Shown one piece after another: positions 2,592 to 12,013 of a stretch of 23,642 bases of DNA. Position numbers and translations under genes: made by a program. The DNA is from a virus, in IMG/VR virus record IMGVR_UViG_3300027963_000346, positions 1 to 23,642 of that record; one strand, written 5' to 3'. The stretch's first letter is position 1, and each line of letters opens with the position of its first letter. Below the pieces are notes generated by a model, which saw nothing but the letters and a program-made list of their open reading frames with translations, ran no database searches and had not been told where the DNA came from.

Positions 2592-4802
2592 ATGTCGAAA
2601 AAAGTTTCACTCGTGGCCCGGATGGGTGCAGGAATCAAAGCGTTCGGCGCAGGATTTGGCGCTGGCATCAGCACGTTCCAACCTTACGAGGGCGCAGGAT
2701 TTTCACGGAAACGCCCGGTCATTTACGGAGCCCACGCCCGCGATTCACGCCTCGATCTTAACGAAGCGACCCGGACGGAACTTCTCAAACTTGCGCGGCA
2801 CATGTACCGGAACGTCGGGCTGATCAAAGGCGCAGTGGACTCGATTGCCACCTACTCGATCGGGCCCGGACTGCGCCCACAATATCGCGGAACCGATCAG
2901 GAGTTCGGAAGACTCTGTGAGGAATACTGGCGGGACATGGTCGCGCCATCCCCAGAGGTCACCGGCCGGATGACTTGGACGGATATGCTGCTGACTCTAT
3001 CGCGATCGATCGACGTGGACGGCGACGTGTTCGTCGTCATGACTGAGAAGGGAAAACTGCAAATTGTCGAAGGTCATCGGGTATGCGAGGGCGACGACTA
3101 CGGAACCGCCGACGGCGTGTTTCTCGGAAAGCTAGGTGAACCCACCGCCTACTTGATCCAGACCGGAGACATGTGGCGCAAACTTTCAGCAGATACCGTC
3201 ATTCACCTGATGGAACTAGAACGGCCCGACCAGATCCGCGGAGGATCGTCACTGGCCCGTGCGTTGAATCACGTCCGGGATCTGAAGATGTTGGGTGAAT
3301 TTGAAAAAGACGCTCTGAAACTTCAGGGATCGATTGCCGCTGTCATCACGACAAACGAAGGCGATGAACTGGCAGGGCAGGGCGGATTCTTTGGAACCGT
3401 TCAGGCGCAGGATACCGGCGAAAGCACCATCGCCCGCGAGGAGATCACAAGCTCGGCCACGATCCCACGGCTGGCCCCTGGCGAAAAGATTGAGATGGTC
3501 GGGCCGAATCGGCCGCACGCCGGCTTTGAACCGTTTGCCAAATTCCTGATCCGCGACGTGGCGATGGGCCTCGGCCTTCCGGTGGAATTCGTTTACGACC
3601 CCGCCAGCGTCGGCGGCGCAGGGATGCGATTCATCGTGGCCAAAGCGCAGCGCCGTTTTGAACAGCGCCAGCGCCTACTGATCGACAGATTTTGCAACAG
3701 GGCGTGGCGTTATTTCATCGGCGGAGCGATTGCCAACGGCGACCTGCCGGCCGTCGAAGATTACGCAAAGGTCACGTGGCAGACTCCGAAGTCTCTGACC
3801 GTGGACGCAGGGCGTGAGGCACAGCAGGCGCGGGAAGACTATAAAGCGGGCCTATCCTCCTTGCAGGACTACTTTGGGGAGCTTGGCCTCGACTGGGAAG
3901 AACAGGTCAGACAGATCGCAAAGGAACGGGAATTTATCGCATCCATCGGAACCGTCACACCGCAGACCGACGTAGCTGCTCCGGTCGAAGCAGTCAAAGA
4001 AGCTCCCGCCATCGACGAACCCACTCCGGTGAATTCTGAAAAGGATCCGAACGCAGGGCCGGACGCGGAGCTGTCGGCCCTGGTCGAACTGAACATGCCC
4101 GACCCCACCCCGGGCGAAAACGAATCCGCTTTCATGGATAGGTGCATGACCGAAACCAGCATGATTAAAGAATATCCCGATCAGGATAAACGGCAGGCGG
4201 CGTGCAAACTACGTTTTACGTCAAAGACAGAATTCAACATGCCGGATCCTACCGTGGGCGAAAACGAAAGCGCTTTTATGGATCGCTGCATGACTGATCG
4301 TGCCATGGTGAAAGAATACCCCGATCAGGACAACCGGCAGGAGGCATGCAAACTTCGCTTCAATAAAAAAACAGAATTTAACATGCCCGACCCCACCCCG
4401 GGCGAAAACGAATCTGCTTTCATGGATCGGTGCATGACCGAAACCAGCATGATTAAAGAATATCCCGATCAGGATAAACGGCAGACTGCGTGCAAGCTGC
4501 GCTTCACGTCGAAGACAGATCTGGAAGCGAAGGTTGAACTGGATCTTCCCACACAGAATCCCGGCGAAAGTGACGACAATTTCATGGGCCGGTGCATGGG
4601 AAATCCAACCATGAACAAGGAATTCCCTGACGCGGCACAACGCACGGCCGTGTGCGTTCGGCAGATGAAACTGTCAGCCAATCCACAGACAGAATCCTTC
4701 ACAATGAAGGACGACCCGGACTTCAATCTTTCAGCTAAGGAACTCGATATGGTGGCAAAGGCCGTCGGGCTTGGCGTAAAAAAAAAGACAAAATTGAGTT
4801 AG
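2592..4802 (+). CDS. Portal protein, lambda GpB family, with C-terminal Cys-containing repeats
   Basis: 736 residues. About the first 470 form the portal, the dodecameric ring through which DNA enters and leaves the head. Family-like segments include HMYRNVGLIKGAVDSIATYSIGPGL (in short: an early helix then GPGLRP near 93-98), HLMELERPDQIRGGSSLARA around residues 205-224 (RPDQIRGGS) and the later RDVAMGLGLPVEFVYDPASVGGAGMR region. After a Pro/Glu-rich linker come four 45-48-residue repeats (499-693), unusual for this family. The last codons contain a nine-A run, beyond which the -1 frame is open into the following domain, so a longer 841-residue product is likely. The ATG lies two bases after the preceding stop, with no strong ribosome site, suggesting coupling. 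Confidence 0.93.
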   Translation: MSKKVSLVARMGAGIKAFGAGFGAGISTFQPYEGAGFSRKRPVIYGAHARDSRLDLNEATRTELLKLARHMYRNVGLIKGAVDSIATYSIGPGLRPQYRGTDQEFGRLCEEYWRDMVAPSPEVTGRMTWTDMLLTLSRSIDVDGDVFVVMTEKGKLQIVEGHRVCEGDDYGTADGVFLGKLGEPTAYLIQTGDMWRKLSADTVIHLMELERPDQIRGGSSLARALNHVRDLKMLGEFEKDALKLQGSIAAVITTNEGDELAGQGGFFGTVQAQDTGESTIAREEITSSATIPRLAPGEKIEMVGPNRPHAGFEPFAKFLIRDVAMGLGLPVEFVYDPASVGGAGMRFIVAKAQRRFEQRQRLLIDRFCNRAWRYFIGGAIANGDLPAVEDYAKVTWQTPKSLTVDAGREAQQAREDYKAGLSSLQDYFGELGLDWEEQVRQIAKEREFIASIGTVTPQTDVAAPVEAVKEAPAIDEPTPVNSEKDPNAGPDAELSALVELNMPDPTPGENESAFMDRCMTETSMIKEYPDQDKRQAACKLRFTSKTEFNMPDPTVGENESAFMDRCMTDRAMVKEYPDQDNRQEACKLRFNKKTEFNMPDPTPGENESAFMDRCMTETSMIKEYPDQDKRQTACKLRFTSKTDLEAKVELDLPTQNPGESDDNFMGRCMGNPTMNKEFPDAAQRTAVCVRQMKLSANPQTESFTMKDDPDFNLSAKELDMVAKAVGLGVKKKTKLS
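4086..4670 (+). repeat. Four tandem 144-bp coding repeats in the portal C-terminus
   Basis: Copies lie at 4086-4229, 4230-4373 and 4374-4517 (each exactly 48 codons). After an 18-bp linker, a diverged fourth copy runs 4536-4670. Each encodes a core of the form NMPDPTPGENESAFMDRCM, then EYPDQD-RQ-ACKLRF, with two invariant Cys. Copies 1 and 3 differ at only about 11 of 144 bases and share a long identical central stretch, indicating recent duplication or gene conversion. Copy 2 is more diverged. I recall single copies of this GE...F..RC...EFPD..QR.A.C motif in many phage head proteins; its function is unknown to me. Confidence 0.95.
4778..4787 (+). promoter_or_regulatory. Candidate -1 ribosomal frameshift site (A-run, A AAA AAG) in the portal gene
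   Basis: Nine A's (4778-4786) followed by G read in the portal frame as AAA AAA AAG. The last seven bases, A AAA AAG (4781-4787), match the efficient bacterial slippery heptamer known from dnaX. A -1 shift here avoids the stop at 4800-4802 and enters the frame of the next domain with no intervening stop, through to 5116. A 5-bp hairpin (CGGCA/TGCCG) lies about 30 nt downstream, which is far for a stimulator. An assembly error in the homopolymer (true length ten A's) would produce the same picture. Confidence 0.55.
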
Positions 4803-4819
4803 CCAAATCCACCGCCGGC

Positions 4820-5116
4820 ATGATTGCCGAGGCAAAGCGAGGGCTTGAATGGCGTAAAAAACACAAGCGCGGCGGAACGCTTGTCGGCGTTGCAAGGGCG
4901 AGAGACATTATCAACAATGTGGACTTTCCCGATTCGACCATCGCTCGAATGCACAGCTACTTCTCAAGACATGAAGTCGATAAGAATGGCAAAGGATTTA
5001 GCCCAGGTGAGCAGGGATTCCCATCAGCCGGCAGAATAGCTTGGGCGCTATGGGGAGGGGATGCTGGTCAGACATGGGCGGCCGCACAAATGAGGCGAAT
5101 TAACCGCGAAGAATAA
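4820..5116 (+). CDS. Conserved phage head-associated domain; probably the C-terminus of a frameshifted portal
   Basis: 98 residues if started at ATG 4820, but the frame is open back through the A-run at 4778-4787, giving a 109-residue extension to the portal (841 residues in all). Recognisable conserved blocks are RGLEWRKKHKRGGT, VGVARARDI, MHSYFSRHEVDK and the strongly conserved PSAGRIAWALWGGDAGQTWA. I know this domain from phage structural proteins, often as a C-terminal part of portal or head-maturation proteins; it has no established activity that I can cite. No Shine-Dalgarno precedes 4820, which favours production by frameshifting over separate initiation. The next gene begins 19 nt after the stop, preceded by TTGACA. 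Confidence 0.7.
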   Translation: MIAEAKRGLEWRKKHKRGGTLVGVARARDIINNVDFPDSTIARMHSYFSRHEVDKNGKGFSPGEQGFPSAGRIAWALWGGDAGQTWAAAQMRRINREE

Positions 5117-5135: not shown

Positions 5136-6068
5136 ATGGCCAACAAACTTTCAAACGTTTCCATTCTTACGATCGGCGAGGCCAAAGGGCATAATCTGCT
5201 GATCGATCAAAAGTCGCTCGAGCAGGCGCTCGAAGTCGCCAATTCCATGAAGCGGATCAAGGTGACCATGGGCCACGGGGCCGAGGTCTCCGGGATCCTC
5301 GGATATATTGACGGATTCAGGATTGAAGGCGAACGCCTCATGGGCGACCTGACCCTGTTCAACACCAATGAAGCGCAGTTCGTTCAACACCTGGCGCAAG
5401 TCCTCCCAGAGGGGTTTGGCCTGTCCCTTACATTCAGCGGCGTCCCGGAACAAATTGCAGGCGATCGTTTCGCCAGGGTAACCGAAATTTACGACATCAG
5501 CGTGGTCAGCACACCGGCCGCCAACCCCGCCGGAATGTTTTCTGCATTCACAGCAGTTGACATGAAAAAACTGCAAATGAACGAAGCGCCTGTCGAAGTA
5601 AAGAAAGAGGAGATCGCGCCGGCCGTTGTGGCCGAGGTCGCAGCTCCTGCCGTTGAAGCTCCCGTTGTCGAAGTGAAAGCAGAGCTGGCCGAAATGCCTG
5701 CCGATAAACCTGCCGACAAGCCCGAGGAAAAAATGGCCGAACCTACTTTGACCGACATCGCCGGAATGCTGGCCGAGCTGCTTGCGCTGATGAAAGCCGA
5801 CGCAACTCAGGACGTGACCGAAGCTCCTGAAGCTCCCGCTGAAGACATGGCCAAAAAGCCCATGCCTTCCGAGATGAGTGCCAAGTCCGACGATAAGGCC
5901 GACAAGGCCGTGACCACTTTGGAAAAAGCCAAGGCCGACGCTGCTGGTGCAGTGGCGGTTCCCGCTGAATCGAGCCAACCGCTCGGCCGGGCTGAAATCC
6001 TCAATCAATTCAACGCGGAAAAGTCTCCGGCCCGTCGGTCGGAACTGCTTCGCAAACTCGGACTGTAA
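5136..6068 (+). CDS. Prohead protease-scaffold fusion
   Basis: 310 residues from ATG 5136 (a TTG at 5127 would add three). Residues 1-140 look like a prohead serine protease: MGHGAEVSGILGY around H47, GFGLSLTFSG with candidate nucleophile S97, and EIYDISVVSTPAANP (117-131), the strand seen in this protease class. Such enzymes cleave scaffold and coat proteins inside the prohead. Residues 140-310 are Ala/Pro/Glu/Lys-rich and low complexity, with a basic C-terminal helix (ARRSELLRKLGL) that fits a scaffold tail binding the coat protein. The position just before the capsid gene supports this. Codon-biased low complexity also creates a long antisense reading frame that is not a gene. Confidence 0.8.
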   Translation: MANKLSNVSILTIGEAKGHNLLIDQKSLEQALEVANSMKRIKVTMGHGAEVSGILGYIDGFRIEGERLMGDLTLFNTNEAQFVQHLAQVLPEGFGLSLTFSGVPEQIAGDRFARVTEIYDISVVSTPAANPAGMFSAFTAVDMKKLQMNEAPVEVKKEEIAPAVVAEVAAPAVEAPVVEVKAELAEMPADKPADKPEEKMAEPTLTDIAGMLAELLALMKADATQDVTEAPEAPAEDMAKKPMPSEMSAKSDDKADKAVTTLEKAKADAAGAVAVPAESSQPLGRAEILNQFNAEKSPARRSELLRKLGL

Positions 6069-7349: not shown

Positions 7350-9035
7350 GTGGCCACTCGAAATCCTAAAATCTCAATTTACATGATCGCAGGCCATGAG
7401 GCCGCATTCATGGAACGCTGTCTGACCGCATTCAAACCGTTCTGCGATGAACTGGTCGTGTGCATGGCGCAGGGATCCCGGCCGGACGACGGCACCCGGG
7501 CGATCGCTGAAAAGGCGGGGGCCGTCATTACAGAATATCACAACGCATCGGCAGGAGCCGATTGGCCGCACATCGACAACTTTGCAGCCGCTCGCAACAA
7601 AGCACTGGACGCCTGCTCCGGGGATTATGCCGTATGGATCGACTGCGATGACCTCCCCCATAAAGACCTAAAAAACGCGTTTAAAAGAGCCGTGGCGGCG
7701 TTTGAATGCGATCCGAAGGTCGGCATCTATGCCGGAGTTTATGACGTTATAAACGCCAAACTGCGTCCAGTACGGGAGCGAATGGTTAAGAAAATCGAAA
7801 GCGGATGGACGGGCCGGTGGAACTACGCTGTGCACGAAGCGCTTTTGCCGCTTCCGGGATTCACTTCAGTGGGTGAGCAGGCTGTCTGGGTTGAACATCA
7901 CCCTGGCGGATACAAACAAGGAAGCGCTGATCGGAATCTACGCATTCTCAAAGCGCAACTGAGCGAGGCCGGCAAGTACGCATACTACTATCAGCAGGAA
8001 CTTTTCCTATCCAACAATCGGGCAGAGTCGATCACCTGGTCAAACGCTGCCGCCCACTGGCCGGATCAAGAAGCGACGCTGGCCTATGAGGCGATGAACA
8101 ATTTGGCGACGGCCACGCCTGACCGTGAAAAGCGGATCGAGCTTTATCACAAGGCGCATCACATGAATCCCAGCCGCCGGGAATCTCTTTACTACTTGGC
8201 CCGAGAGGAAGCGTCCGTCGGCCGTTGGTCGTCGGCTTATCATTATCTCAAATCGGCGATGGTTCAGTCGGATCCAGGCGTCACGGTCTGGAACGCTCAG
8301 CGAACGGTCTATGACTTTGAATGCATCGATCTCTATATTGCGGCGTGCCGTGCTGTTGGCGACAACGATGAGGCCGATCGAGTGACTGCAAGCTGGCGAA
8401 AGATTCGTCCGGTCAAAATCTCAATCTGTCACGCCACCCGCGGGCGACCGCAGGAAGCGATCAACGCCCGGATCCTGTGGATGAAAAAGGCGGCCGATCC
8501 GGCTGCCGTCGAATGGATCTTTTCCTGCGACGACGATGACGAAAAGGCGAAGACGCTCAAACCGTGGGGGCCAGTCATGGGCAAAGGTAGCTGCATCGCC
8601 GCTTGGAACAGGGCGGCCGCTGTGGCACAAGGCGAGATCATCGTGCAAGGCTCCGACGATTGGGATCCGCCGCTGCACTGGGATCAGATCCTGATCGATA
8701 GGTTGGGCGATACCAGCAAGCCGAAGGTTTTGGCGGTCAGCGACGGCCATCGGAAGGATGACCTGTTGTGCATGGCAATCATGACCCGGGCGAGACTAGA
8801 TGATCAGGGCGCCATGTTTGCGACTGAATATGATCAATGCTCGGGAATCTTTTCTGACAACGAATTCAGCCACAGAGCGAAATTTGACGGAGTGATCGTG
8901 GACGCGAAAGACGTGGTCTTCAAACATAACAACCCATTCTTCACCGGCGCACCACAGGACGAAGAATTCAAAAAGCACAACGCCAAAGAAAACTACACGC
9001 TGGGAGAAAAGATTTTTAAGGAACGCAATCCGTGA
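7350..9035 (+). CDS. Two-domain GT-A glycosyltransferase with central helical repeats
   Basis: 561 residues. Domain 1 (about 6-190) is a family-2-like glycosyltransferase: a start strand KISIYMIAGHEAAFMERCL, DDGTRAIAEKAGA, FAAARNKAL and the metal/nucleotide motif WIDCDD (97-101). The middle (about 225-350) is helical with TPR-like repeats (YHKAHHMNPSRRESLYYLA). Domain 2 (about 354-560) restarts with KISICHATRGRPQEA and has CDDDD (393-397), AAWNRAAAVAQGEI and SDDWDPP (435-441), so it looks like a second GT-A fold. Such enzymes transfer sugars from nucleotide donors. Start GTG 7350 has GAGAGG 7 nt upstream. The stop overlaps the next start. It probably adds one or two sugars to a virion protein or glycan; the acceptor is not deducible. 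Confidence 0.85.
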   Translation: MATRNPKISIYMIAGHEAAFMERCLTAFKPFCDELVVCMAQGSRPDDGTRAIAEKAGAVITEYHNASAGADWPHIDNFAAARNKALDACSGDYAVWIDCDDLPHKDLKNAFKRAVAAFECDPKVGIYAGVYDVINAKLRPVRERMVKKIESGWTGRWNYAVHEALLPLPGFTSVGEQAVWVEHHPGGYKQGSADRNLRILKAQLSEAGKYAYYYQQELFLSNNRAESITWSNAAAHWPDQEATLAYEAMNNLATATPDREKRIELYHKAHHMNPSRRESLYYLAREEASVGRWSSAYHYLKSAMVQSDPGVTVWNAQRTVYDFECIDLYIAACRAVGDNDEADRVTASWRKIRPVKISICHATRGRPQEAINARILWMKKAADPAAVEWIFSCDDDDEKAKTLKPWGPVMGKGSCIAAWNRAAAVAQGEIIVQGSDDWDPPLHWDQILIDRLGDTSKPKVLAVSDGHRKDDLLCMAIMTRARLDDQGAMFATEYDQCSGIFSDNEFSHRAKFDGVIVDAKDVVFKHNNPFFTGAPQDEEFKKHNAKENYTLGEKIFKERNP

Positions 9036-9796
9036 TTCACACGCACAACGCGTTCAGACTTGGCGACAATCTGGTGCAGCTAAACTTTCTGCGCCGCCTA
9101 TGCCTGCAAAATCCTGAACTAGAGATCACGCACTATTACTGTCCTTACCTTTGCAAATTTGAGGAAATCGACGCGCTTCGGTCTGATATTTCACGCCGAC
9201 TATTTCTAAAGACGATTGACCAAGCTCCCAAAGACAGCATCAACTCTTGGCGCGGATCCGACGGTTACTGGTACGGCCATCCCGACAGATTGGATTTTGC
9301 AAAGTTTCACCTGTGCTGGTTTGAGGAACTGGCCAGCCGGATGGCCGTAAAAAATCCAATACGCAAAACGGAAGATCTCTTGTTTGATTATTGGGCGCTT
9401 GAATCGTTCATTCCTATGACCGAAGACTTCGACGTCGTCGTCATCAATTCGCCGGGGCTGTCCAATCAATTCACAAATTTCAACAAAGACGACTTCACGG
9501 TTTTAATTTCAAAACTTGTCGCAAAAGGCCATCGGGTAATCACAACGGCGCCGACTGAGATCTGTCCTGCCTTTGAAAATAAAAACGTCACTTGGATCGG
9601 AGCCACGGCCGCCAAGGCGAAAGCGATCATCGGAACATCCACCGGGCCGAGCTGGCCGTGCCTGAACGTTCACAATAAAGACGCCTTTCACCTGCTTTGC
9701 GCCGATACCGAAAACGTAATCCTTACTGAACGCGGGCAGATGGCCAGAAGCGCATTTCACGCCATTCATATTTTGGAAGAAGTGGGGCTGCTTTGA
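9032..9796 (+). CDS. Putative GT-B-like glycosyltransferase (heptosyltransferase/GT9-like)
   Basis: 254 residues, GTG start in a GTGA overlap with the preceding glycosyltransferase. The N-terminus FRLGDNLVQLNFLRRLC resembles the GDN/GD loop at the start of GT9-type and related sugar transferases. The C-terminal part has a Rossmann-like strand FDVVVINSPGLSNQF, then TTAPTEI and a donor-site-like IIGTSTGPSWPCLN, comparable to the TGPxH/S region of GT9 enzymes. It is short for a full GT-B enzyme (about 330), so one domain may be reduced. The context of a glycosyltransferase upstream and TPP/radical SAM genes downstream supports a sugar-transfer role. The assignment is from motif likeness only. 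Confidence 0.6.
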   Translation: MIHTHNAFRLGDNLVQLNFLRRLCLQNPELEITHYYCPYLCKFEEIDALRSDISRRLFLKTIDQAPKDSINSWRGSDGYWYGHPDRLDFAKFHLCWFEELASRMAVKNPIRKTEDLLFDYWALESFIPMTEDFDVVVINSPGLSNQFTNFNKDDFTVLISKLVAKGHRVITTAPTEICPAFENKNVTWIGATAAKAKAIIGTSTGPSWPCLNVHNKDAFHLLCADTENVILTERGQMARSAFHAIHILEEVGLL

Positions 9797-10314
9797 AAGC
9801 TGAGCTGACGAAAGCTATGGAAACTTTGGCCTGGGATCCGGCCGTCCGGTTCATTGGATACGGCGTAAAAGTGGGCGGTCGGGCCGCCGGCACACTGAAC
9901 CGCGTTCCAGATTCTCAACTGATCGAGACGCCTGTGGCTGAAAATCTCATGGTTGGAATGGCGACCGGCCTAAGTCTGGCAGGACTCAAGCCAGTTGTTT
10001 TTATTGAAAGAATGGATTTCATTCTGAACGCCTTGGACGCAATCGTGAACCATTTAGGCGCTGCGGCCCGGATAAGCTGCGGGCAATTTTATCCGGCCGC
10101 CATCATCAGAGTGGTCATCGGAAATAAAAAGAAGGCACTTTTTACAGGGCCAACGCACACGCAGGACTTCACCCAGGCGATCAGGGGAATGGTGGACTTT
10201 CCAGTCATCGATCTTTCACACCCTTCGCAAGTGGCCGGTGAATACAAATTCGCACTTGAAGGCCTGAGCTGGGGCCGATCGACCATGCTTGTCGAACGAA
10301 AGGACGATTGGTGA
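9793..10314 (+). CDS. TPP enzyme, pyrimidine-binding half (E1-beta/transketolase Pyr domain)
   Basis: 173 residues starting at TTG 9793 within a TTGA overlap; an in-frame ATG at 9817 is the alternative. It matches the pyrimidine-binding domain of 2-oxoacid dehydrogenase E1-beta and transketolase-like enzymes: LIETPVAEN (43-51), where E50 corresponds to the glutamate that activates the thiamine aminopyrimidine; GLKPVVFIERMDF (64-76); ALDAIVNHLGAAA (80-92); SCGQF (95-99); GPTHTQDF (119-126). It lacks the C-terminal domain that makes normal E1-beta about 325 residues, so it is a minimal version. It probably pairs with the product of 11399-12013 to build one active site. The substrate is unknown; ketose or alpha-keto-acid chemistry is the family expectation. 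Confidence 0.85.
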   Translation: MKAELTKAMETLAWDPAVRFIGYGVKVGGRAAGTLNRVPDSQLIETPVAENLMVGMATGLSLAGLKPVVFIERMDFILNALDAIVNHLGAAARISCGQFYPAAIIRVVIGNKKKALFTGPTHTQDFTQAIRGMVDFPVIDLSHPSQVAGEYKFALEGLSWGRSTMLVERKDDW

Positions 10315-11402
10315 AGCAGAACAAATACAGCGACCTAAAAATCTTTTCGTTTCCAGATAAGATCACCAGCTTCCGGGACGATATTATCACGGCTCCGATC
10401 TACGTGCGGATCAAACCGACGAATATCTGCAATCATGCGTGCCGTTTTTGCGTTTATTCTGACGGCACAACTCGGCCTAAAGATCGCCCGGATCTACACC
10501 TGCAAGCCGGAATGCACACCAGCATGAACGAACGAGACGTCATGCCTACGGCCAAGGCGATGGAACTGATTGAGGATCTTTCCAACATAGGCACCAAAGC
10601 CGTGACGTTCAGCGGAGGCGGCGAACCGCTACTGCATAAAGACATCGTTCAAATTATGACAAAGACTGTTTCATCCGGGTTGGATCTTTCTATCATCACC
10701 AACGGCCAGCTTCTCACCGGTGAACGGGCGGAAGTATTGGGCAACGCCAAGTGGGTCAGGATTTCCATGGACTACACCAGCGCCGAACAGATGGCCGCCA
10801 GCCGAAACGTGCCGGATCGATCGTTTGATTCGGTCATGCAAAACATAAAAAACTTTTCCAATACAAAGACCGAAACCTGCGATCTTGGAATCAATTTCAT
10901 CATCACCCGTTATAATTATGAAGGGCTCGTTTCGTTTGCAAAACAGCTCAAGGAATGCGGGGTGAGCAACGTCCGCTTTTCGCCCGTCTATGTTCAGAAC
11001 TTTAAGGAATATCACGGTACGATTGCGACCAGGGTGCGTGAACAGCTTGCGGAATGTCAGTCATTCTGTGATGAGGATTTTACGATCAATACGACTTACG
11101 ATCTGGATAGTCCAAGCAAGTCGCCGCTGCGTCCGTTTCATCGTTGCTTATACGCTCAAGCCGTTTGCGTGGTCGGTGCGGATCTGGATATCTACGCCTG
11201 CCACAATACGGCATACGCAAATCACGGCCGGATCGCATCGATGAAGAATCAAACGTTCAGTCAGGCATGGTTCGGGGATGAGGCCAAGGCATGGCACAAG
11301 AACTTCAATCCCGGCGTCAGCTGCCTGCATGAATGCGCCAATCACGCGAAGGTTGCGCTGTTTGAAAAACTGGCAACCGACAGCCATGACGCCTTTGTAT
11401 GA
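10311..11402 (+). CDS. Radical SAM enzyme with SPASM-like C-terminus
   Basis: 363 residues from GTG 10311 (GTGA overlap); a TTG one codon earlier is possible. The radical SAM cluster motif is CNHACRFC (C40, C44, C47), followed by a GGE-type SAM motif SGGGEP (101-106) and barrel strands such as LSIITNGQLL and VRISMDYTSAEQ. The C-terminal region carries five spaced cysteines (279, 286, 297, 338, 342), as in SPASM/twitch enzymes that bind extra Fe-S clusters. These enzymes use a 5'-deoxyadenosyl radical to modify peptides, sugars or other small molecules. Lying between the two halves of a TPP enzyme and downstream of two glycosyltransferases, it may act on the same sugar or on a virion peptide. 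The substrate cannot be read from sequence. Confidence 0.92.
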   Translation: MKQNKYSDLKIFSFPDKITSFRDDIITAPIYVRIKPTNICNHACRFCVYSDGTTRPKDRPDLHLQAGMHTSMNERDVMPTAKAMELIEDLSNIGTKAVTFSGGGEPLLHKDIVQIMTKTVSSGLDLSIITNGQLLTGERAEVLGNAKWVRISMDYTSAEQMAASRNVPDRSFDSVMQNIKNFSNTKTETCDLGINFIITRYNYEGLVSFAKQLKECGVSNVRFSPVYVQNFKEYHGTIATRVREQLAECQSFCDEDFTINTTYDLDSPSKSPLRPFHRCLYAQAVCVVGADLDIYACHNTAYANHGRIASMKNQTFSQAWFGDEAKAWHKNFNPGVSCLHECANHAKVALFEKLATDSHDAFV

Positions 11403-12013
11403 ATAAACAAGACCTGATCGATTTTGAGCTGCGGATCAAAGCCCTTTTTGAGCAGGGGAAACTGCCTTATCTGATCCACCTTTGCGGCGGAAATGAAGAT
11501 CAACTGATCGAAATTTATAAAGAAATCCGCCCGGGCGATTGGATCTTTTCAACCCATCGATCGCATTATCACTACCTTTTAGCCGGCGGGGATCCCGACG
11601 CACTGGAACAGATGATAAAAGACGGTAGATCCATGTTCGTCTTTGACCGTAAATTAAATTTTTACACATCCAGCGTGCTGGCCGGGACGTGCGGAATAGC
11701 GGCCGGAGTCGCGCACACGCTCAAAGAACAGGGCAGCGCATCAAAGGTATGGTGCTTTCTGGGCGACGGGGCGGAGGATGAAGGTCACTTTTATGAAGCC
11801 GTGAACTATGTCGCCGGCTCCGGCCTGCCTTGCACCTTTATCATCGAAGATAACGATCGGTCAGTCGATACGTCCAAAGCAGCCAGGGGAAAAGCGACAA
11901 TGACTTGGCCGGATTGTGTCCGGCGCTATTCCTACACGCCAACGTTCCCCCACGGCGGTGCTGGGTGCAAAACGATGGTCACTTTTGATCCATCAATTCG
12001 TCCGATCTGGTGA
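11399..12013 (+). CDS. TPP enzyme, pyrophosphate-binding half (E1-alpha/transketolase N domain)
   Basis: 204 residues, ATG in an ATGA overlap with the radical SAM gene. It matches the E1-alpha/transketolase N-terminal domain: IRPGDWIFSTHRSHYHYL (43-60; H53 and H56 are in the active-site loop region), AGTCGIAAGVAHTLKEQG (95-112), and the TPP/Mg motif GDG (122-124) with N152 after 27 residues (GDG...IIEDND). Typical E1-alpha has about 330-360 residues, so this is compact, ending soon after a RYSYTPTFPHGG segment. It is the partner of the E1-beta-like half three genes earlier. It is the last gene of the cassette, followed by a 17-nt gap before the tail genes. Active-site residues look intact, arguing against decay. 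Confidence 0.87.
   Translation: MNKQDLIDFELRIKALFEQGKLPYLIHLCGGNEDQLIEIYKEIRPGDWIFSTHRSHYHYLLAGGDPDALEQMIKDGRSMFVFDRKLNFYTSSVLAGTCGIAAGVAHTLKEQGSASKVWCFLGDGAEDEGHFYEAVNYVAGSGLPCTFIIEDNDRSVDTSKAARGKATMTWPDCVRRYSYTPTFPHGGAGCKTMVTFDPSIRPIW

Follow-up and report, generated by a model that had tools for sequence, protein, structure and literature searches.

The portal gene described here is best explained, on the evidence of its sequence, as one gene that would specify portal proteins of two lengths. We give an even chance to the more specific proposal that a run of nine adenines (A9) near the 3' end of the gene is a slip element at which RNA polymerase slips, so that a 736-aa and an 841-aa portal would both be produced. 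The window, that is, the whole stretch of DNA that was analysed (23,642 nucleotides), comes from a 23.6-kb virus contig. The features of the locus are as follows.

2592..4802, plus strand: portal gene, short form, 736 aa (PF05136, E = 2.9e-51; phrog_21 portal, E = 2e-57)
4778..4786, plus strand: A9 run, putative slip element (A9 in 29/31 and A10 in 2/31 domain-bearing relatives)
4781..4787, plus strand: portal-frame heptamer A AAA AAG, putative site of a -1 ribosomal slip
4787..5116, plus strand: -1-frame domain of 109 aa, phrog_2859 (E = 9.1e-26), which would extend the long portal to 841 aa
4800..4802, plus strand: zero-frame TAG, end of the short portal (present in 10/10 out-of-frame contigs)
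5136..6068, plus strand: next gene, prohead protease or scaffold by position and synteny (same place as the Clp protease-like gene in Verrucomicrobia phage P8625)

The portal gene and its 3' junction

The upstream product is a portal protein of the lambda family, in which PF05136 (Phage_portal_2) spans the portal core with a score of 175 bits (cut-off 32.9). The C-terminal tail of the short portal is of the tandem-repeat type. The repeats lie at positions 4090-4660 (NMPDPTPGENESAFMDRCMTE...EYPDQDKRQAACKLRF), and this tail region is also where the portals of relatives vary widely in length. The gene at 5136..6068, for which Pfam and PHROG matches were sought and none was found, directly adjoins the portal in the relatives that lack the domain.

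At the junction, the codons of the portal frame are GTA AAA AAA AAG ACA AAA TTG AGT TAG, with G4787 directly 3' of the A9 run. The portal stop is located five codons past the A9G run (4778-4787), and this TAG overlaps a TTA Leu codon in the -1 frame that is rare and conserved. The -1 frame, which reads DKIELAKSTAGM... at the junction, is open from stop to stop over 4739-5116, with its stop codon at 5114-5116. The predicted long portal consists of 732 portal residues followed by the 109 residues of the domain. An earlier note on this DNA had described a nine-A run ending in A AAA AAG in the portal frame, a -1 frame open through to 5116, and a predicted 841-residue product with the junction peptide KKKDKIEL; all of these readings of the sequence are correct. 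In the window, the A9 run is the only homopolymer of at least eight nucleotides. Because an A9 or T9 run arises in 219 of 500 first-order Markov sequences of the window's composition, the rarity of A9 within this single window is no evidence in itself.

As for the remainder of the window, a block without an obvious virion role lies between the head and tail genes (7350-12013) and contains what appear, by eye, to be genes for a glycosyltransferase and a radical-SAM protein as well as split transketolase-like genes. The motif TTGACA[CT] occurs in eight copies on the plus strand and in none on the minus strand. The copies at 2276, 5117, 12474, 17042, 19470 and 21057 (plus strand) are found at gene ends, where they overlap or touch the stop codon and the next start follows shortly after. 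TTGACA[CT] is possibly a recurrent intergenic expression signal.

With respect to the host, the capsid protein has a single near-full-length match among isolates, in Verrucomicrobia phage P8625 (29% identity). The synteny of that phage is similar, and its portal is of ordinary length and lacks the domain. We take a verrucomicrobial host as no more than a lead. A portal scan of genome contigs gave no prophage relatives, and a Poseidonia MAG contig that matched the A-run and domain pattern was set aside as a chance match, the domain search of that MAG being negative.

The run and the domain among relatives

IMG/VR was scanned with the domain, the portal, the capsid gene and three DNA patterns, more than 200 loci were fetched, and the 3' end was read for each portal of the window's family. 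The window and nine relatives (L002, L003, L004, L005, L082, L086, L090, L098 and L100) form clade A, comprising ten distinct contigs from ten metagenomes, all of which have exactly A9 and carry the domain in the -1 frame. All ten of these out-of-frame contigs, among them the deeply diverged L005, share the codons GTA AAA AAA AAG, and the block GGCGTAAAAAAAAAGA is invariant across all ten sequences. A further member of clade A, L089, has A10 and is an in-frame fusion. In clade B (about 17 distinct sequences), the junction is CTT AAA AAA AAA GAA and the A9 run fuses portal and domain in frame; its member L157 has A10, which places the domain out of frame, to be reached only through the loss of one A or the gain of two. 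A9 is in frame as well in clade C (L129 and L133) and in L012, a distant relative. Thus, homologous phages that fuse the domain in frame, which the earlier note had proposed as a check, do exist in the sister clades, and with the same A9. In clades B and C (L006, L007, L102 and others), the long portal also has an extra C-terminal piece of ~130 aa, ending ...PNSRTAWAIARVNKFL...KKSYREADGDLL.

In total, the 31 domain-bearing portal ends comprise 29 with A9 and 2 with A10, whereas the 54 distinct portal ends in the family that lack the domain include none with a run of at least eight. A8 and A11 are absent among the 31, and A8 did not appear in a scan that would have accepted it. A9 was seen in six more loci read by eye, two of which duplicate contigs already in the count. 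These results indicate that the conservation of A9 or A10 at the junction exceeds chance (31/31 domain-bearing versus 0/54 domain-less ends), in counts from which phylogenetic dependence is incompletely removed.

The portal tree places L089 and L157 nested among members with A9, and the domain tree, which has little resolution inside the clades, places each of them within its own clade. The two trees are discordant at L213 and L243, for which the domain groups with clade B and the portal core falls outside clades A, B and C. This discordance suggests that a piece consisting of A9 and the domain has been exchanged between portals. Since the trees disagree, the 31 cases are not independent, and the A9-domain cassette has perhaps moved as a unit.

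Codon choice at the junction was also compared with that in the rest of the gene. GTA and TTA are both rare in clade A portals, where none of the 24 invariant Val columns is all-GTA and none of the 36 invariant Leu columns is all-TTA, yet both codons are fixed at the junction, the TTA providing the zero-frame TAG. In clade B, where the fusion is in frame, synonymous variation is zero at nine junction codons, against a mean of 0.175, and codons -31 to -23 form a second, equally invariant stretch. Part of the reason why the in-frame clades retain A9 may be a KKK linker and low local divergence.

In 31/31 sequences, exactly one of the three phases leads into the domain, and each of the others meets a stop 5-13 codons from the start of the run. 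The nearby off-phase stops were considered as a selected trait per se and rejected as such, being not significant per sequence: a simulation with the clade codon usage gives them in 14-43% of cases. The weight of the case therefore lies on the A-run and not on the stops.

The residues of the domain that are invariant in an alignment of 46 sequences (GRGGT...ARARD...SYF.RHEVDK...PS.GRIAWALWGGD) are present in the window. Pooled over the 10 out-of-frame contigs, pN/pS is 0.07 for the domain and 2.8 and 3.2 for the other two frames, third positions account for 71 of the 94 variable sites, and neither stops nor indels occur in the domain. The codons between the A-run and the ATG at 4820 are likewise constrained (pN/pS 0.09, on small counts). 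These results indicate that the -1-frame domain is under purifying selection as a protein. In addition, L005 differs from the other clade A members with a pS of about 0.72-0.83, synonymous divergence being saturated for the deepest pair in the clade, and its domain protein is 91-92% identical to theirs. The out-of-frame layout is therefore old and no recent error, unless the two parts came together by recombination. The proposal of the earlier note that recoding at the A-run adds a conserved domain to the portal is thus strongly supported, by the A9 in ten out-of-frame contigs, by the selection on the -1 frame and by the fusions in sister clades.

An AlphaFold2 model of the domain has five helices (pLDDT 93), and a Foldseek search of the PDB found no solved fold like it. 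Its predicted viral fold relatives are prohead proteases, XkdF-like proteins, portals and Mu gp29-like proteins, and in Roseobacter and Synechococcus phages the domain starts the protease or capsid gene that adjoins the portal. These occurrences mark the domain as a mobile head-assembly module.

Proposed polymerase slippage and the alternatives

In the explanation that we prefer, the host RNA polymerase would slip on A9 and generate mixed transcripts. Those with A10 (or A9+1+3n, or A7) would be read into the domain, whereas in those with A9, A8 or A11 translation would end after a few codons. Ribosomal -1 slippage at A AAA AAG might contribute too. In the sister clades, where A9 is in frame with the domain, a slip would yield the short form, and both lengths would arise either way. 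In many bacteria, slippage begins to show once a run reaches nine bases (PMC1088944). As in slippage of the Thermus dnaX type, a run of at least nine A lies in a coding region, the domain is in one phase with stops in the others, and the length of the run is conserved. Somewhat more tentatively, we propose that A9 travels with the head domain among portals as a cassette indifferent to phase, polymerase slippage yielding a ring of mixed short and long subunits whatever the frame in the DNA.

In known portal structures, the C-terminus faces the capsid interior. The extra domain would therefore be located near the protease or scaffold and the DNA, on some subunits of the ring only. If only a fraction of the subunits carried the domain, crowding would be avoided or a ratio would be set.

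The leading alternative, which we regard as possible though rather doubtful, is programmed -1 ribosomal frameshifting at A AAA AAG of the E. coli dnaX type, in which transcripts would be faithful and a minority of ribosomes would produce the 841-aa protein. A dnaX-like shift had been put forward in the earlier note, and as far as the heptamer and the phase are concerned it is right for the window's clade: A AAA AAG, an in-frame heptamer of the X XXY YYZ type, does not vary among ten contigs, and the domain lies exactly in the -1 frame. The ribosomal mechanism itself remains a candidate, and neither a conserved upstream Shine-Dalgarno (SD) element nor a stem-loop at the usual spacing was found. 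A_AA.A_AA.G is among the top E. coli heptamers when stimulators are provided, whereas without them such heptamers reach 2-10x a background of about 0.05% (PMC4066793). Among the ten contigs, neither an SD nor a purine-rich element is conserved at about 10 nt upstream, L005 altering both of the nearest G-rich stretches, GGTGGC and GGGCTT. Single-sequence folds and RNAalifold gave nothing unusual for a downstream stem-loop at 5-9 nt (z about -0.3 to -1.1, no covariation). One small hairpin lies further downstream.

4816..4829, plus strand: small conserved hairpin CGGCA-TGAT-TGCCG, beginning about 28 nt past the slip site, without covariation

This hairpin is probably not a frameshift stimulator. 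In clade C (L129 and L133), a hairpin TCCCTAACAAAGGGA / TCCCCAATAAGGGGA is found at a similar distance past the A-run, with one compensatory change between the two sequences.

A ribosomal shift also leaves unexplained the retention of A9 in the in-frame clades and the A10 of L157, in which a -1 shift misses the domain. Slippage by polymerase is rated above ribosomal shifting because it explains the retention of nine adenines, the phase that varies between clades and the A10 runs in both directions. A point against polymerase slippage is that in clade A the run invariably ends in the ideal heptamer A AAA AAG, correctly phased, although a slipping polymerase has no need of it. Slippage by polymerase and by ribosome look alike in the DNA, whose anatomy agrees with the Thermus dnaX type at least as well as with the E. 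coli dnaX type, and both may act.

Replication slippage, which we consider improbable, would make the run a phase-variable contingency locus, with A9 and A10 varying in the phage population and each phage producing one form. The two A10 contigs, L089 and L157, each with an on/off state opposite to that of its own clade, speak for such variation, but 29/31 ends have exactly A9 without any A8 or A11. Moreover, the supposed off state is the rule in clade A, yet the domain there is under strong purifying selection.

Still less probable, in our view, is the production of a separate domain protein by re-initiation 18 nt past the portal stop, at the following codon.

4820..4822, plus strand: first -1-frame ATG, the rival start, without an SD; a start here drops 11 conserved N-terminal residues of the domain

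This in-frame ATG is conserved. The earlier note was correct that the downstream domain lacks an SD, and it had counted this toward a frameshift; as evidence the observation is weak, since a clear SD is missing from many genes in the window. We therefore rejected the argument that the missing SD implies a frameshift, and it is equally indecisive against re-initiation. What weighs against re-initiation is that the residues before the ATG, KIELAKPTAG, belong to the domain in the alignment and are constrained, so that a start at 4820 would produce a clipped domain. In addition, the stand-alone domain genes examined mostly start upstream of the domain, and the A9 (or A10) in 31/31 carriers would be unexplained.

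Finally, an assembly error in which an A10 fusion was misread as A9, or a decaying or dead domain, is highly improbable and largely refuted, for although homopolymers are error-prone and the close relative L089 is an in-frame A10 fusion, nine other contigs from nine other metagenomes also have nine A's, which makes the misread ten-A run that the earlier note had named as its refuting case unlikely, and the domain has a pN/pS of 0.07 and no stops.

Comparison with known recoding systems

Portal rings are taken as built of identical subunits. If two lengths are made, rings would be mixed, or a few long subunits would have a dedicated use at the special vertex, possibly to recruit the protease or scaffold or to nucleate the head. 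If polymerase slippage is indeed responsible, a phage structural gene would join the few cases of transcriptional slippage, and the slip run would have been retained while the frame that it serves changed. In phages with an out-of-frame A9, the long form would be missed by gene callers and annotators. Recoding of phage structural genes and slippage at A9 are already known. The conservation of such a run irrespective of phase is, to our knowledge, new for a phage structural gene, and no published case of portal frameshifting or recoding was found among the open-access papers that were searched.

One comparison is with the in-frame fusions of phrog_2859 to portals and to XkdF or prohead proteases, which involve the same domain in the same head-module neighbourhood. 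Unlike in the window's family, the junction of phrog_2859 fusions in other portal families has no A-run.

In dnaX of T. thermophilus, transcriptional slippage at A9, with stops in both other frames, gives two products (PMC1088944, PMC5009743). The portal gene resembles it in the A9 on the coding strand, in the close downstream stops in the other frames and in the two lengths, which are here predicted from sequence; the layout of Thermus dnaX is that of the in-frame clades B and C and of L012. It differs in that Thermus dnaX encodes a polymerase subunit and the gene here is a phage structural gene, and in that the form that needs a slip in clade A is the long one and not the short one. With E. 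coli dnaX, the portal gene shares the heptamer, its phase and the shift to the -1 frame. There, however, the shifted product is the shorter one and the run is A6, whereas here the run is A9, and neither a conserved upstream SD nor an adjacent stem-loop was found.

Shigella mxiE and other long products made by slippage (PMC1088944) are similar to clade A in that two overlapping frames are joined to give a longer protein. mxiE is a regulatory gene with a U run, in contrast to the portal gene with its A run. Among phages, 10A and 10B of T7 are a short and C-terminally extended pair made by recoding. In lambda G/GT and SPP1 gp17.1/gp17.1* (PMC6316719) likewise, a single virion or assembly protein comes in a short form and a C-terminally extended one at a set ratio, as would the two portals proposed here. 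In the lambda, SPP1 and T7 cases, ribosomal shifts give rise to tail or major capsid proteins, whereas the protein that would be made in two lengths here is the portal.
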